Shown here: positions 24,033 through 30,872 of the stretch, piece after piece
Numbering within the stretch: position 1 is the stretch's first letter
Layout: every line of letters begins with the position of its first letter
Source: an uncultured Puniceicoccaceae bacterium
Lineage (GTDB): Bacteria; Verrucomicrobiota; Verrucomicrobiia; Opitutales; Coraliomargaritaceae
Direction of reading: 5' to 3'
DNA length: 37,589 bases
NCBI GenBank assembly: GCA_913031135.1
Contig: CAJWEH010000004.1
Span: forward strand, 1-37,589
Notes under the pieces: model-generated
What the model was told of the DNA's origin: nothing
What the model saw: only the letters and a program-made list of their open reading frames with translations
The model's database searches: none
Translations under genes and position numbers: made by a program

Positions 24033-25193
24033 TTATTCTGAAATAAAGATTTCGCTTTCTGCGATATCATCCACTTTTAAAGTGATCGCAGTTTGCTCAT
24101 CTTGAGTTTCAGAACTAACTACTTTGTTCGCAATTAATGGAAGAGTAAAGGCTAAAAATACGGCAATCAGAGATCCCCCGCAAACTTTTAATAGATCCAT
24201 GAATACTATAGATGATACTTCTTTTTTCCGTTTATGCCTCAAATATAAAGCCATACCAATTTCTCTTCCTGCTAGTAATCCCAAAAATACCCATGTAGTA
24301 CTCATCGGCATTTTCTCTGGCCACGGAACGTCCATGCCAAACGCACTGAATAATTTTGGAATATAATCGACCTTGAAAAACAAGAGCACTAGTCCATAGA
24401 ATAAATCAATAAAAGTAGCCGAACGTACATCTAAGGTATTCGTTTTTGAAGTGACCACATTTTGAATACGCCCTCCGCGTTCCCTAAATATGTAGCCCTG
24501 CAATAACACCATTCCAGCCAATGAAATTAACAAGGCAGTGAGTGATAAATTTCTAGGCAAATAAACGAAGATATTTGCTAAATCTTGTACCAACCACATG
24601 GACCAAAGAAAACCTGTAGACAACCATTGGAAAATGATCCAAAAGGGGTGCAAATCATTGGAATCTTTAGTATTTTGATTCTCAGAGTAGACCCGTTTCT
24701 CAAATGCGCCCAAAACCAAAAAGAAGATTAGAATACCGATGACGAAAGCGATACCATACCCTACCATTGATTTTTCCATCATCTTACTGAATAAATCAAT
24801 GGCGGCTTCAGGCGTTCCACCCTGCTGCTGAGCAACTAATCCTTTAAAACCAGTTAGAACTAAAAGAGAAGTGCTGACCGGTATACCATAACGAGTTAAA
24901 ATAACTAAAGAGAGTGGCGGAATAATAAATAGCCATGTTAAAACCGAACCATAATCATAGGGGTGAGGGATATTTTTCCCAACGGCAGAAAGCCTTCCAA
25001 AAGCAGGATCCCCTCCATTGGCAATCCATCCCCAAATTATCGTCACGCACATCAATCCTGATATCCATAACCATAAAGCCCACCAAGGTCGCTTACTGTT
25101 AGAAGCTATGAATGTACCCAAAGTTTGGATCGAGTCATTAGCTACGATGGCATATGCAGCAAGTGCGAAGCCTATAATCATAATCCAATCCAT
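24033..25193 (-). CDS. PiT-like inorganic phosphate permease
   Basis: A 386-residue polytopic protein with about ten hydrophobic segments. The frame is open to 25424, but that extension overlaps the divergent pstS start and lacks conserved features; MDWIMIIGFALAAYAIVAND at 25193 is the natural first helix. PiT transporters have two inverted repeats, each with a GANDxAN motif and a later P-x-S-T-T. Here they appear as IVANDSIQTLGTF with GIPVSTSLLV, then LVQDLANIFVYLPR with MPMSTTWVFLG. The second GAND copy is clearly degenerate. PiT proteins import phosphate with protons or sodium. Its divergence from pstSCAB supports a phosphate role; divalent-metal phosphate or another anion remains possible. 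Confidence 0.75.
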   Translation of the reverse strand: MDWIMIIGFALAAYAIVANDSIQTLGTFIASNSKRPWWALWLWISGLMCVTIIWGWIANGGDPAFGRLSAVGKNIPHPYDYGSVLTWLFIIPPLSLVILTRYGIPVSTSLLVLTGFKGLVAQQQGGTPEAAIDLFSKMMEKSMVGYGIAFVIGILIFFLVLGAFEKRVYSENQNTKDSNDLHPFWIIFQWLSTGFLWSMWLVQDLANIFVYLPRNLSLTALLISLAGMVLLQGYIFRERGGRIQNVVTSKTNTLDVRSATFIDLFYGLVLLFFKVDYIPKLFSAFGMDVPWPEKMPMSTTWVFLGLLAGREIGMALYLRHKRKKEVSSIVFMDLLKVCGGSLIAVFLAFTLPLIANKVVSSETQDEQTAITLKVDDIAESEIFISE

Positions 25194-25323: not shown

Positions 25324-26139
25324 ATGTACCGATTGCTTTCTTTTTTAACCGTACTACTCAGCTCGCTCTCATTGTCCCTAGCTGACACCATAATTATTAC
25401 AGGCTCGGATACACTAGGTGCCAAACTAGTGCCCCTTTTATCAGAAGCCTACCTTGCAGAAAATGAAAATGCACAAAATTCAACTACTTTTGAAATTTCT
25501 GCCGAAGGCTCAAACACGGGCATTGCTGCAGTGATTGATGGCACTACTTCTATAGGGCTTTCTTCTACTCGTGCCAGCCAAACTGAATTATTAAAAGCTC
25601 AATCACAAGGCGTGGAATTAGCACACATTCCTGTTGCTCAAGATGCTATTGCTGTGATTGTAAATAAAAATAATCCGATAGAAAACCTTAGTCTTAGAGT
25701 CGTAGAATCGATTTTTACTGGCGATATTAAAAATTGGGCTGCTTTGTCAAATTACTCAGGCAGAATCTCCGCCTACTCTAGAAATACTTCTTCTGGCACC
25801 TATCGTGCCTTTCAATCACTAGCACTCAGAAAAAGAAACTTTGCGTCTAAAGTCCTGAAAATGGCTAGCAATGAGCAAATTGTAGCAGAAGTAGAAAAAA
25901 ATCCTTACGGCATTGGATATGTTGGACTGGCTTACATCAATTCCCCATCAATTAAGGTGGTTTCCATAGATGGATTTAGTCCAGCCGATGGCAATGCCTA
26001 TTCACTAAACCGACCATTATATTATTTGATTGATAAAAATCGACCCCTTCCCGAATCCACAAACCAATTCATTGGATTTACCCTAAGTCCTAGAGGCCAA
26101 AAGATTGTTTCTAGCGTTAATTTTATACCTATACATTAA
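25324..26139 (+). CDS. pstS: Phosphate-binding protein of the PST transporter
   Basis: A 271-residue periplasmic binding protein with a signal peptide (residues 1-20, cleavage about LSLSLA-DTIIIT) and no lipobox. Phosphate-binding loops are present: ITGSDTLGAKL near the start, SAEGSNTGIAAVIDGTTSIGLSS (shortened: GSNTGIAAVIDG) and the RNTSSGTYRAFQ loop near residue 157. Also typical is VVESIFTGDIKNWAAL. It is shorter than E. coli PstS (about 320), resembling the compact PstS of other phyla. It is the first gene of pstS-C-A-B-phoU. Confidence 0.93.
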   Translation: MYRLLSFLTVLLSSLSLSLADTIIITGSDTLGAKLVPLLSEAYLAENENAQNSTTFEISAEGSNTGIAAVIDGTTSIGLSSTRASQTELLKAQSQGVELAHIPVAQDAIAVIVNKNNPIENLSLRVVESIFTGDIKNWAALSNYSGRISAYSRNTSSGTYRAFQSLALRKRNFASKVLKMASNEQIVAEVEKNPYGIGYVGLAYINSPSIKVVSIDGFSPADGNAYSLNRPLYYLIDKNRPLPESTNQFIGFTLSPRGQKIVSSVNFIPIH

Positions 26140-26155
26140 AATACAATAGTTTTAA

Positions 26156-27871
26156 TTGATGAATTATTTTCGAATCAGTGCCCTCGGTTCATTAATGATA
26201 CTATCTGTAATTTTAGTCTATATAATAGCTGAAGGCTTTAAATTTGTTCATCTTTACAGAATTGACCAAATAAGTGCTAGGCAATCGGGCACTGAATTTA
26301 TTGAAGTCGTTGAAACGCAAAGAAATGACTTTCTGAACTTGAAGCAAAAGCTCGATTCTATTCGAGCGAATTGGCTTTCATTAAATCAATCAAATATCAA
26401 AGAGTCCTTGGAGGCGATGCATCTTAGTGGTTTTGACAAGTACTATAAAGCAGCACAATCCATCGACCTAGCATTAATTGATTTCATAGTATCAGAAAAA
26501 AATTTAGCTCTAAAGCGAACGGTTAAAATTGATACCCAATTAAGTACAGAAAAAACAATCACTTTACTAACTGAGAATGCTTTAAATATAGAAAAAAATT
26601 CTTTCCTAGCCAATAAGAACTCAAACAAGGAACTGATATTAAAAAAACTTCAGAATAAACTTAGAGAAAGCCAACAGGATCCAAATAATGCATTTTTAAA
26701 TCAATTGCTATTGGAAAAAATCCCGAAGAACACCCCGCTCTTGGACTTTGAGAAAGAATACTTAATTCAATTTATCCAGCTAGAAATTCAATCACTTGAG
26801 CAAGATTTAATTTATCTCCGAGAAAGTGATATTCCGTACAATAAAATTAATTTTCAAAAAAGGTATTATAGAGCTAATCTTAGCTTCAAAGGGTTATTAG
26901 AAAGTCAAAAAATGATTGAGATCGATCCCGCATATATGCCCCCCAAAATAGCTAAAAAGTTCCTTAATTTTCAAAAACATCTGCTTAAGTACCAATATGA
27001 ATTGCCTAAATATTCAGCGACTATCGAAGGCATATCGCTAAATAAGAATATTTCATTTTTAGATGTGATTATAAGTATCGTAACTGGAAAAGATTGGTAT
27101 ATTTCTCCTGAAGGCAGGAGCCAATTTGAGTTGGGACCTTATATCTTTGGCAGCTTTTTAGTTTCGATTGTCGCCCTATTCATTGCTGCTCCGATTGGAA
27201 TCTTCTCCGCCATCTATGTCAGCCGTTTTTCTAGCGAAAAAGAGAGGGGGCGCTTAAAACAATTTTTTGACTTTTCAAGTACGATACCAACCGTCCTAAT
27301 CGGATTTTTCGGCTTACGTATACTAGGTGATCTTATCGTAGATATCTCTAATTGGCCCATTATATCCTCTATTCCAGGATTTCCCCTATATGAGCATTTA
27401 AACATCTTCACCGCTTCTTGTCTCCTCGCCCTAATGATGGTTCCCACTATCTATTATGTTTCAGAAATTGGGCTAAGGCGTTTACCAAAAACCATAGAAG
27501 ACGCTTCCTTAGCTCTAGGTGCTTCAGATATACAAACCATTCAAAAAATATTTTTACCAACAGCATTTCCATCATTTCTAACTGCAATAATCGTCGGGTA
27601 TAGCCGAGCCATTGGAGAGACCATGATCGTATTATTATGCCTTGGAAATAGCGTGAACCTTCCTTCCTTAAGCGAAAATCCCCCATTTATTTTTCAAACA
27701 ACACAAACAATTACCGGTTTAATTGCACAAGAAATGGGTGAGGCTCCTAAAGATAGTTTACATTTACATGCCTTAATGAGTGCTGCCTGTTTTTTGCTGA
27801 TCATAACAATCGCCTTAAATATACTAGCAAGATTCACAGATGAAAATCACAGTCGTAGCTTAAGAAAATGA
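26156..27871 (+). CDS. pstC: Phosphate ABC transporter permease PstC, long form
   Basis: A 571-residue permease, far longer than E. coli PstC (about 320). Residues about 7-25 form one membrane helix. A roughly 300-residue charged, helix-rich, partly coiled region follows (for example KLDSIRANWLSLNQSN and LEIQSLEQDLIYLRESD). The transport domain begins at about 328 with FGSFLVSIVALFIAAPIGIFSAIYVS. The permease core includes the cytoplasmic EAA-type loop ASLALGASDIQTIQKIFLP and the family block GYSRAIGETMIVLLCLGN. It therefore carries a large extracytoplasmic domain. It starts 16 bases after pstS and overlaps pstA by 4 bases (ATGA). Confidence 0.93.
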   Translation: MMNYFRISALGSLMILSVILVYIIAEGFKFVHLYRIDQISARQSGTEFIEVVETQRNDFLNLKQKLDSIRANWLSLNQSNIKESLEAMHLSGFDKYYKAAQSIDLALIDFIVSEKNLALKRTVKIDTQLSTEKTITLLTENALNIEKNSFLANKNSNKELILKKLQNKLRESQQDPNNAFLNQLLLEKIPKNTPLLDFEKEYLIQFIQLEIQSLEQDLIYLRESDIPYNKINFQKRYYRANLSFKGLLESQKMIEIDPAYMPPKIAKKFLNFQKHLLKYQYELPKYSATIEGISLNKNISFLDVIISIVTGKDWYISPEGRSQFELGPYIFGSFLVSIVALFIAAPIGIFSAIYVSRFSSEKERGRLKQFFDFSSTIPTVLIGFFGLRILGDLIVDISNWPIISSIPGFPLYEHLNIFTASCLLALMMVPTIYYVSEIGLRRLPKTIEDASLALGASDIQTIQKIFLPTAFPSFLTAIIVGYSRAIGETMIVLLCLGNSVNLPSLSENPPFIFQTTQTITGLIAQEMGEAPKDSLHLHALMSAACFLLIITIALNILARFTDENHSRSLRK

Positions 27872-29037
27872 ACCTTTTAAAAACTAGATCCCAAAAAAAT
27901 GGGCAGATAACTGCCCATTCTAGAAACTTGTTAAAACGGTTTTTTCAATTCAACACCTATTTATTTTTCACCTGCATATGCCTAATTTTTTTAACGATTT
28001 CAATCAATGGATCTAAAGCCATCTTCACTTCTAAATTCCCTTATATTAATACAGCATTTTTCACAGAAAAGCCTCAAACCCTCTACGTATATAAACCCAA
28101 ATGGATCATTCAAAAATTGAGTGCCTTGGAGGCAGAATCTGAGTTGATCAAGCAAGAAGATTCAAATTATGAAACAAAACATTTAACGGTTAAAAAGGAG
28201 ATTCAGTTATTAGAAAAACAACTTTTGAACGAAACTATAAAATTTACTGAATATCAAATACAAAACTCTCAAGAATTTGACCCCAACATATATTTAAGGG
28301 AAACTTACCCCTTTAGTGCAGGCGGCATTGCCCCTGCACTCTTTGGCAGCATTTTCTTAATACTAGGGACCTTTCCTATTGTTTTCTTAATGGGCTTATC
28401 GTCTGCCATTTACTTATCTGAATACAGCCCAAATGACAAAACAACTAAGATTATTAAAAATTCAATAAATGCACTTGCAGGAACCCCCTCAATTATTTTT
28501 GGAGTATTTGGTTATGGTATCTTTGTTCTAGCATTCGGGTGGGGATTTTCGCTACTAGCAGGATGGCTAACGATAGCTCTGATGACACTTCCAACGGTTA
28601 TTTCAGACTGTGAGATCGCTCTAAAACGGATCCCTGAAAGAGAACGAATGAATGCAATTGCTTTAGGCGCTTCAAAATGGCAATCCATACGCCATAATGT
28701 CCTCCCTTATTCGATCAATGAAATCTTTGCTTCGACTTTATTTAATATCGCAAAAACATCCGGAGAAGCAGCCCCAATAATGTTCACCGCTGCGTATGCA
28801 TTTAGAGATAAATTACCTTGGCAAGGATTAGAGAATTGGCACGATTTCTTCTTTCAAGGGGTTATGGCACTTCCCTACCACATCTATATTTTAAGCGTTA
28901 AATTACCTATAAATGCGTATACCAGAGATATGCAATATGGAGCCGCTTTTATATTTTTATTATTTGTAGGTAGTTTATCTATGCTTGGAATTTATTTAAA
29001 ACAATTAAGCATCAATAAGCAAAAACCTTACCTATAA
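27868..29037 (+). CDS. pstA: Phosphate ABC transporter permease PstA
   Basis: A 389-residue permease that pairs with PstC. After one membrane helix (about residues 30-50) there is an extracytoplasmic insertion of about 80 residues with a coiled-coil-like run (LSALEAESELIKQEDSN, LLEKQLLNETI). The transport domain then starts at about residue 150 (GGIAPALFGSIFLILGTFPI). The EAA loop appears as AIALGASKWQSIRHNVLPY, preceded by IALKRIPERER, and the conserved KTSGEAAPIMFTAAY follows. The start overlaps pstC by 4 bases, so translation is probably coupled. Its insertion may contact the large PstC insertion or PstS. Confidence 0.93.
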   Translation: MNLLKTRSQKNGQITAHSRNLLKRFFQFNTYLFFTCICLIFLTISINGSKAIFTSKFPYINTAFFTEKPQTLYVYKPKWIIQKLSALEAESELIKQEDSNYETKHLTVKKEIQLLEKQLLNETIKFTEYQIQNSQEFDPNIYLRETYPFSAGGIAPALFGSIFLILGTFPIVFLMGLSSAIYLSEYSPNDKTTKIIKNSINALAGTPSIIFGVFGYGIFVLAFGWGFSLLAGWLTIALMTLPTVISDCEIALKRIPERERMNAIALGASKWQSIRHNVLPYSINEIFASTLFNIAKTSGEAAPIMFTAAYAFRDKLPWQGLENWHDFFFQGVMALPYHIYILSVKLPINAYTRDMQYGAAFIFLLFVGSLSMLGIYLKQLSINKQKPYL

Positions 29038-29077: not shown

Positions 29078-29839
29078 ATGAATGTTCCAATAATATCCGT
29101 TAACGATTTCTCATTGAATTATGGACAAGAAAGACGTTTACATAATATCAATTTTGACGTTATCGGTCATCAAGTAGTGGCTCTAATTGGACCTACAGGC
29201 TCTGGAAAATCCTCTCTTTTGCGATCTATCTGCCGGATGAATGATATCCATTATGATGCAAAAATAACTTCTGGGACGATCTATTACAAAAACCAAGATA
29301 TCTATAAAAAAGAGTTTAATCCCTTAGAACTGAGAAGGAATGTTGGGTTTGTATTTCAAAAAAACAATCCATTTCCAAAAAATGTTTATGAAAATGTTGC
29401 CTACGGTCCCTCTTTAAAAAAAAGTCATGCAACAGAAGAACTTGATGAGATCGTGAAAGAATCACTGAACGCAGTAGACCTTTGGGAAGAATTAAAAGAC
29501 AGTCTTAATCTGAGCGCTTACCAACTCACTAAAAATCAGCAAAAACGCCTATGCATTGCACGAGCGATTGCCCTTAAACCAGAAGTTTTATTGCTCGATG
29601 AACCCTGCGCAACTATGGACACAATTAATACTGGAAAAATAGAAGAGCTGATCAACCAATTGAAAAAAAATTACACAATCATTATCGCAACTCATAACAT
29701 GCAACAAGCTGCACGCATATCCGACCAAGCAGGCTATCTAAATGAAGGGCGCTTAATTGAATTTAATCGAACAGACGCTCTATTTATGAATCCTGTTAAT
29801 CCAGAAACTGAAGCCTATATATCAGGTCGATTAGGTTAG
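29078..29839 (+). CDS. pstB: Phosphate ABC transporter ATPase PstB, altered signature motif
   Basis: A 253-residue ATPase driving phosphate import. An upstream in-frame TTG at 29042 would add 12 residues, but ATG 29078 (MNVPIISVNDFSLNYG) aligns better with PstB N-termini. Walker A GPTGSGKSS is at about 38-46, the Q-loop is in GFVFQKNNPFP, Walker B is LLLDEPCATMD and the H-loop is IIATHNMQQAARIS. The helical-domain signature, normally LSGGQQQR, reads LTKNQQKR (bases 29525-29548). Both glycines and the serine are replaced, whereas the flanking RLCIARAIA is perfectly conserved. It follows pstA and precedes phoU by 16 bases. The other catalytic residues look intact. Confidence 0.93.
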   Translation: MNVPIISVNDFSLNYGQERRLHNINFDVIGHQVVALIGPTGSGKSSLLRSICRMNDIHYDAKITSGTIYYKNQDIYKKEFNPLELRRNVGFVFQKNNPFPKNVYENVAYGPSLKKSHATEELDEIVKESLNAVDLWEELKDSLNLSAYQLTKNQQKRLCIARAIALKPEVLLLDEPCATMDTINTGKIEELINQLKKNYTIIIATHNMQQAARISDQAGYLNEGRLIEFNRTDALFMNPVNPETEAYISGRLG

Positions 29840-29855
29840 ATTTTAAATTTTTATT

Positions 29856-30467
29856 ATGGAACGCTTTTTTCACAGTGAATTAGAACATTTAAAAAGTAAG
29901 TTGATCTTGCAGGGCGAGAAATGTTACTTATCCGCAAACAGCTCAGTCAATGGATTTAAAGATTCCAATACTGATGAATGCGAAAATGCATTACAGTTAG
30001 AGCCCTCGATCATTGAACTAGAAAAAGAAATCATTCATGCTGCCATCCGTTACATCACGCTACAAAATCCTGTTTCTTCAGATGTACGCTTATTATTTGC
30101 CCTTATAAAGATCAGCAATATTTTATTACGAGTCAGTAGCGAATCCTGTAATATAGCCAGAAAGACCAAAGTAATCCTATCCACTTATGGCAAGACGCAC
30201 TATGCTCCTTACATCAATACCATTAGTGATCATAGCTTAAACTTATTACAAGATAGCATCTCTTCCTTCATAAATGAAGATCTTAAATTAGCTCAAACAA
30301 TTGAAGCTAAAGAACAAGAGTCCGTAAACACAGTTATGATCGACTTTTTTAAAGAAAATAAAGAAAGCCAACGAGAACTGTTATTAATTTCAAATTCAAT
30401 GGAGCAAGTATCGAACTATTCGAAAGAAATCGCCCAAAACATAATTTACCTTTTAACAGGCCAGTAA
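29856..30467 (+). CDS. phoU: PhoU-type phosphate signalling regulator
   Basis: A 203-residue all-helical protein. PhoU proteins are three-helix bundle repeats that bind metal clusters and link the PST transporter to a PhoR-type kinase, restraining the Pho response. Recognisable features are the N-terminal FHSELEHLKSKLILQGEKC helix, the metal-ligand-type helix ELEKEIIHAAIRYITLQNPVSSDVRL (abbreviated: IRYITLQNPVSSDVRL) and a second similar half. It is somewhat shorter than the usual roughly 230 residues. It is the last gene of the pst run. No phoR/phoB pair is in the window. Confidence 0.88.
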   Translation: MERFFHSELEHLKSKLILQGEKCYLSANSSVNGFKDSNTDECENALQLEPSIIELEKEIIHAAIRYITLQNPVSSDVRLLFALIKISNILLRVSSESCNIARKTKVILSTYGKTHYAPYINTISDHSLNLLQDSISSFINEDLKLAQTIEAKEQESVNTVMIDFFKENKESQRELLLISNSMEQVSNYSKEIAQNIIYLLTGQ

Positions 30468-30485: not shown

Positions 30486-30872
30486 ATGACAAAGAAAACG
30501 ACAAAAAAAACTGCGACTAAAAAGAGTGTAGCCAAAAAAGTTGCGTCTACAAAAACTAAGAAAGTTGCCAAAACAGCAACCACAAAGAAAAAAGCCGTTC
30601 GCAAAACCATTTCCAAAACGACCATAGCGGCTCGTGTCGATGTTGGATTTGGAAATAACCTTTATATCCGAGGTGAAGGAGCTGGATTAAGTTGGGATGT
30701 TGGCATCTTAATGAAAAACTTATCCCCCTATGAATGGGTTTGGGAAAGCAAAACTGCATCGAGCCCCCTAGAATACAAATTCATTATCAATGATGAAGTA
30801 TGGGCAAACGGCGGAAACTTATTTGCCAAGCCTGGCGAGACCTCGATCAGTGCACCTTCATTCAATTGGTAG
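30486..30872 (+). CDS. Lysine-rich tail fused to starch/glycogen-binding-like domain
   Basis: A 128-residue protein in two parts. Residues 1-46 contain 17 lysines in TKK/AKK-type repeats (TKKTTKKTATKKSVAKK), like histone H1-type tails that bind DNA. Residues about 50-128 resemble a CBM20/CBM48-type immunoglobulin-like carbohydrate-binding domain: NLYIRGEGAGLSWDVGILMK, then W-V-W-E, then LEYKFIINDEVWANGGN. That order (strand, S-W, aromatic, E-Y-K-F, W) is characteristic of glycogen- and starch-binding domains. There is no signal peptide. Function unknown; it could bind nucleic acid, glycogen or both. It starts 18 bases after phoU and is convergent with the acyltransferase gene. Confidence 0.75.
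   Translation: MTKKTTKKTATKKSVAKKVASTKTKKVAKTATTKKKAVRKTISKTTIAARVDVGFGNNLYIRGEGAGLSWDVGILMKNLSPYEWVWESKTASSPLEYKFIINDEVWANGGNLFAKPGETSISAPSFNW

Follow-up and report, generated by a model that had tools for sequence, protein, structure and literature searches.

We describe a phosphate transport operon, pstSCAB-phoU, whose ATPase PstB carries a degenerate ATP-binding cassette (ABC) signature and an altered D-loop, with all reading frames of the operon open. The operon lies in a 37,589-nucleotide stretch (the window) that comprises one whole contig, CAJWEH010000004.1, of the draft genome GCA_913031135.1 of an uncultured Puniceicoccaceae bacterium (1.28 Mb, 97.6% complete, 95 contigs). From the sequence, we tentatively favor an ordinary PstSCAB-PhoU system by descent with a strongly impaired ATPase motor, in which an adjacent PHO4-like permease would take up phosphate and the complex would persist in some residual function. 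An open operon encoding a single ATPase with both of its sites degenerate would be unusual; the variant is known from one genome, and a search of the open-access literature turned up no naturally occurring PstB like it.

Degenerate signature and altered D-loop in PstB

In pstB (29078..29839, forward strand; 253 amino acids, with a possible alternative start at TTG 29042), codons 29525-29548 (CTC ACT AAA AAT CAG CAA AAA CGC) encode LTKNQQKR, where relatives have LSGGQQQR. The alignment with Escherichia coli PstB contains no gap across the signature (window YQLTKNQQKRLCIARA versus E. coli YSLSGGQQQRLCIARG), which secures the assignment of LSGGQ to LTKNQ. All full-length PstB relatives compared have an SGG-type signature, while the partial match L041 has TGG (relatives from the genus and family are labeled with G-numbers for genomes and L-numbers for loci; for example, G012 corresponds to L070). 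An earlier note on this DNA had claimed a PstB with LSGGQ changed to LTKNQ, and the codons, the ungapped alignment and the SGG of relatives all bear this out. At the DNA level, a pattern requiring PstB-like QQxRLCIAR after a codon not starting with G was run on 388 genomes of the phylum and gave a match in this one alone; the pattern is blind to Ala, Val, Asp and Glu changes and to PstB with a different flank. The corresponding Gly pattern, run on 115 genomes of that phylum, was present in 67.

The changes extend to the D-loop (29606..29623, forward strand), which reads CATMDT where relatives have CSALDP; the Asp of SALDP is kept and its neighbors are changed. Using a set of 88 columns invariant in 37 relatives, we found 68 sites kept and 20 changed in the window PstB; other sequences, tested singly, differed at no more than seven. 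In the signature and D-loop together, eight of ten invariant residues are changed (S151T, G152K, G153N and Q156K; S178A, A179T, L180M and P182T) versus 12 of 78 elsewhere in the protein (Fisher p = 7e-5, somewhat optimistic because the regions were picked after the signature had been seen; the D-loop is the independent part).

The motifs that bind ATP in cis are largely preserved (23 of 26 invariant sites). All invariant residues are present in the A-loop, the Q-loop region (VFQKNNPFP, 29351..29377; 7/7 sites), Walker B with its catalytic Glu (VLLLDEP, 29585..29605) and the H-loop region (THNMQQAARI, 29690..29719), and Walker A (GPTGSGKSS, 29189..29215; all four on the forward strand) has three conservative changes that leave it functional by the general GxxGxGK[ST] consensus. 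Of the ABC superfamily hallmarks, Walker A, the Q-loop, the Walker B Glu and the H-loop are therefore present, and LSGGQ and SALD are absent (LTKNQ and ATMD). The earlier note regarded the other nucleotide-binding motifs as intact, which is true of the A-loop, Walker A, Q-loop, Walker B and H-loop; the D-loop and Q156 are exceptions. The changes thus spare the face of the site at which ATP is bound by the same subunit and leave degenerate the face that should close over the partner's ATP.

A divergent PstB within a divergent operon

Judged by profiles, fold and gene context, the protein is a PstB by descent and a divergent variant. TIGR00972 (PstB) was its best curated profile (318 bits, E 3.7e-95; next family, 231 bits), the Pfam ABC_tran match scored 99 bits and the gene is encoded together with those for PstS, PstC, PstA and PhoU. 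The closest solved relative by both sequence and fold is E. coli PstB (9k3x/9k3s; TM 0.90-0.92; pLDDT of the AlphaFold model, 89.6). The two proteins are 46% identical when structurally aligned and share their fold, operon partners, the cis ATP motifs and a C-terminal SGR/TGR-x-G ending but differ in LSGGQQQR versus LTKNQQKR and SALDP versus ATMDT. As the score falls below the TIGR00972 equivalog cut-off of 343.2 bits and the signature is lost, we name the protein a divergent PstB by descent rather than a functional equivalog. No second PstB was found in the genome, of which 2.4% may be missing; other ABC matches were 23-32% identical and belonged to other families. The second, canonical pst operon that the earlier note had proposed to look for was likewise not found.

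The neighboring subunits, all encoded on the forward strand, are also altered. The phosphate-binding protein PstS (25324..26139) has SSTR instead of SSRD in its ligand loop and keeps RNTSSGTY. The permease PstC (26156..27871) has a long N-terminal extension and retains the GE-pair Glu as well as the equivalent of E. coli R237. In the second permease, PstA (27868..29037), the EAA-loop REG is changed to RMN and the equivalent of E. coli R220 is Lys (28753-28755); E. coli PstA R220Q is cited in PMC5775613 as stopping transport but not signaling. PhoU (29856..30467) is still detected as such (PF01895, 62 bits, two stretches; TIGR02135, 89.8 bits, below the cut-off of 130.25) and has lost both conserved ER..D motifs, with ER..DEAH changed to LRVSSESC and IER..DHAKN to MEQVSNYSKE (about 30120-30149 and 30402-30428). 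Identities to same-genus relatives are ~53% for PstS, ~30% for PstC, ~47% for PstA, ~52% for PstB and ~36% for PhoU, as compared with 78-85%, 64-77%, 72-80%, 86-91% and 69-85%, respectively, among these relatives themselves. Control genes on the same contig lie at the genus norm (glyS, 81-84% identity; glnA, 90-92%), and a PhoB/PhoR-like pair elsewhere in the genome is conserved at the genus-normal rate.

Predicted consequences for ATP hydrolysis and phosphate uptake

In the mechanism that we propose, PstB probably still folds and binds ATP with the Walker A, Walker B, Q-loop and H-loop of the same subunit, and the degenerate face formed by signature and D-loop would close poorly over the ATP of the partner. 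Assuming a homodimer as in E. coli, both ATP sites would be affected. The complex would then spend most of its time open and inward-facing, the ground state that has been proposed for the Q160K mutant of E. coli PstB. The adjacent PHO4-like permease would take over bulk phosphate uptake, leaving the complex with a residual role, for example slow or nucleotide-gated phosphate passage or holding the PhoR/PhoB-like pair off. In TAP, a D-loop mutation turned an ABC pump into a passive nucleotide-gated facilitator (PMC4242082), a precedent for an uncoupled transporter; there the conserved Asp was changed, whereas in the window PstB the Asp is kept and its neighbors are changed.

Poor ATP hydrolysis appears most likely given the loss of both glycines, the altered D-loop and a Q156K change that corresponds to E. 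coli Q160K; in the numbering of E. coli chain 9k3x, Q160 occupies the same column as window Q156, and E179 is the Walker B Glu, matching the paper that describes the mutant (PMC5775613). E. coli PstB Q160K is reported to transport no phosphate and to keep the Pho regulon largely off, and its MalK equivalent, Q140K, to be non-transporting with very low ATPase activity (PMC5775613). Loss of the second signature Gly reduced hydrolysis in several ABC proteins without blocking ATP binding (PMC4459825; PMC3268037). The window PstB shares with Q160K the Lys at the same post-signature position; in that mutant, however, LSGGQ and the complex are otherwise normal, whereas here the signature S, G and G and the D-loop are also changed and the whole operon is divergent. 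The R220K change in PstA and its lost EAA Glu add to the picture of an impaired motor.

The putative uptake gene, which encodes a PHO4/PiT-like permease (24033..25193, reverse strand), lies divergent from pstS, is intact and shares ~70% identity with its copies in other genera. We consider it a candidate phosphate route. Its PF01384 (PiT/PHO4) score was 11.9 bits against a gathering cut-off of 33.7, and all five permease members compared showed such sub-threshold PHO4 similarity (best E 0.0069). No protein in the genome scored above threshold for PF01384 or PF02690, and comparison of the PHO4-like protein with solved structures gave no match. In G009 and G019, stops or deletions have reduced the gene to a relic; it was not found in six same-genus genomes searched, some of which are incomplete. 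The permease is thus a patchily lost transporter, and it may represent an undescribed PiT branch.

Several observations weigh against an impaired motor relieved by this permease. Other ABC ATPases encoded by this genome also have Lys or Arg at the position of Q156 (LSGGERRR and LSGGMNKR), so Q156K by itself is no proof, and the signature Thr retains the hydroxyl of Ser. The PHO4-like assignment is sub-threshold and the structure model of the permease has a pLDDT of only 37.7. G025, G031 and G012 have the PHO4-like gene yet keep SGGQ; hence, the permease alone does not explain the signature change. Finally, the loss of the ER..D motifs disfavors a normal signaling role for PhoU. Of the earlier suggestion that PstB hydrolyzes ATP poorly and the complex works mainly as a phosphate sensor with PhoU, the first half thus appears most likely from the sequence, while the sensor half is weakened.

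We regard as unlikely a stricter version, in which a maintained PstSCAB with both ATP sites degenerate does not pump and serves as a nucleotide-gated passive route or a locked regulatory complex.

The alternative that survives best, although we judge it to be on the improbable side, is an active pump with concerted, mutually compensating changes in signature, D-loop, EAA loop and permeases, yielding a re-engineered ATPase site. The frames are all open after a long divergence, the changed motifs adjoin at the dimer interface, as coevolution would give, and the kept Thr hydroxyl and the Lys or Arg tolerated at the Q156 position in other ABC ATPases fit an active enzyme. In addition, Asn is sometimes able to replace Gly. 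Against this, no other PstB with such a signature was detected in the 388 phylum genomes by the pattern used, PhoU lost its motifs at the same time and, in tested ABC proteins, loss of the second Gly impaired hydrolysis (PMC4459825, PMC3268037).

Selection and decay

We then considered a system on its way out, with constraint relaxed since another transporter suffices and with stops or frameshifts not yet fixed, and rate this as unlikely. It would account for the acceleration of all subunits, the small genome of only 1.28 Mb and the relic state of the neighboring permease, with stops, in other genomes. It would also fit the distribution of Pst in the family; no PstB match at E < 1e-60 was found in G013, G018, G019, G027, G029, G033, G034 and G036, two of which are ~99% complete, and Pst thus seems dispensable there. 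However, pstS, pstC, pstA, pstB and phoU contain zero stops, even in the long pstC and pstA genes, whereas a relative's operon allowed to drift neutrally to half the observed divergence acquired ~24 stops on average (minimum, 11 in 200 runs); selection has therefore acted through most of the history of the operon. In comparisons of the window with same-genus relatives, fourfold synonymous sites approach saturation in control and pst genes alike, so that an unconstrained gene would keep little identity, and the 68 of 88 invariant PstB sites that are kept include nearly all cis catalytic ones. A simple neutral pseudogene, or simple neutral decay over the whole period, was rejected on the basis of the open frames, the drift simulation and the near-saturated synonymous sites; selection on the operon may have ended recently. 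The earlier note had held that relatives all carrying LSGGQ would point to a sequencing error or a dying gene; relatives do carry that motif type, but the operon-wide divergence, open frames and near-saturated synonymous sites speak against a sequencing error and against a simply dying gene.

It is doubtful that the complex moved to another substrate or role with its transport cycle altered to suit. The SSRD-to-SSTR change in the PstS ligand loop and the rank of the permease PstC as the most changed subunit would be expected in this case, but the best matches of PstS are still phosphate-binding proteins, its RNTSSGTY loop is kept and a substrate switch needs no loss of the ATPase signature.

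Genomic context and phylogeny

The window contains, in order, rpsT, the PHO4-like gene, pstSCAB-phoU, a small gene, an acyltransferase-like gene and glyS. The same order and site occur in other genera of the family (G009, G020, G025 and, partly, G012). In the same-genus genomes G001, G005 and G006, no pst genes lie between rpsT and the small gene before glyS, and pst is instead found at another chromosomal site (L061, L063 and L065 against L062, L064 and L066). In a PstA and PstB tree, the window branch is very long, with about two substitutions per site; grouping the window with same-genus Pst was rejected (p-AU 0.002), while placement within the family beside G012 was not rejected, with the limits of long-branch attraction and of missing data for G012 and G031. 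In the simplest reading of these sequence data, the window and its same-genus relatives would carry different Pst lineages. Transfer from another family of the phylum was unsupported, as all PstA matches with E < 1e-90 among the 388 genomes fell in the same family, and a search of viral contigs yielded no relative. The PstB of G012 (L070, 781-1524), from another genus, also has a long branch (0.52 versus 0.02-0.10) yet keeps LSGGQ.

An assembly or base-calling error or a contaminant contig could be suspected from the single genome in 95 contigs and the rejected same-genus grouping but is highly improbable, since the S/G/G-to-T/K/N change needs at least five substitutions from any S/G/G codons, all in frame and beyond one or two read errors, the frames are open throughout, glyS and glnA from this contig have genus-typical identities (82-84% and 90-92%) and the synteny matches that in other genera of the family. 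A sequencing slip or double frameshift was ruled out because neither shifted frame gives LSGGQ, and contamination was rejected on the evidence of glyS, glnA and the gene order.

Further features accompany the operon. N-terminal extensions before the permease domain, of ~300 residues in PstC and ~145 in PstA, are common to the family. Beside phoU, the gene at 30486-30872 (forward strand) encodes a small protein whose N-terminal tail is Lys-rich and histone-like and whose C-terminal part is conserved (63-82% identical in same-genus genomes); the protein matches no Pfam family above cut-off. A Pho box scan upstream of pstS gave a best score of 10/14, reached by 35 of 200 shuffles, and two other-genus relatives score 12.

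Relation to known systems and significance

Naturally degenerate signatures occur in TAP, CFTR and fungal Cdr1p; in these, however, one of two non-equivalent sites is degenerate, whereas a single PstB gene in the window means that both sites would be. Natural functional divergence among PstB proteins is exemplified by Enterococcus faecalis PstB1 and PstB2 (PMC12096839), but these are two tandem paralogues, one of which is required for import, unlike the single divergent copy here.

Designed E. coli mutants have so far been the means of asking whether Pst serves any purpose in the absence of ATP-driven transport, a question still open in phosphate signaling. The operon in the window offers a natural case, in which the Q160 position has changed together with the remainder of the trans side of the ATP site in an otherwise open operon, and it is amenable to simple complementation and ATPase assays.
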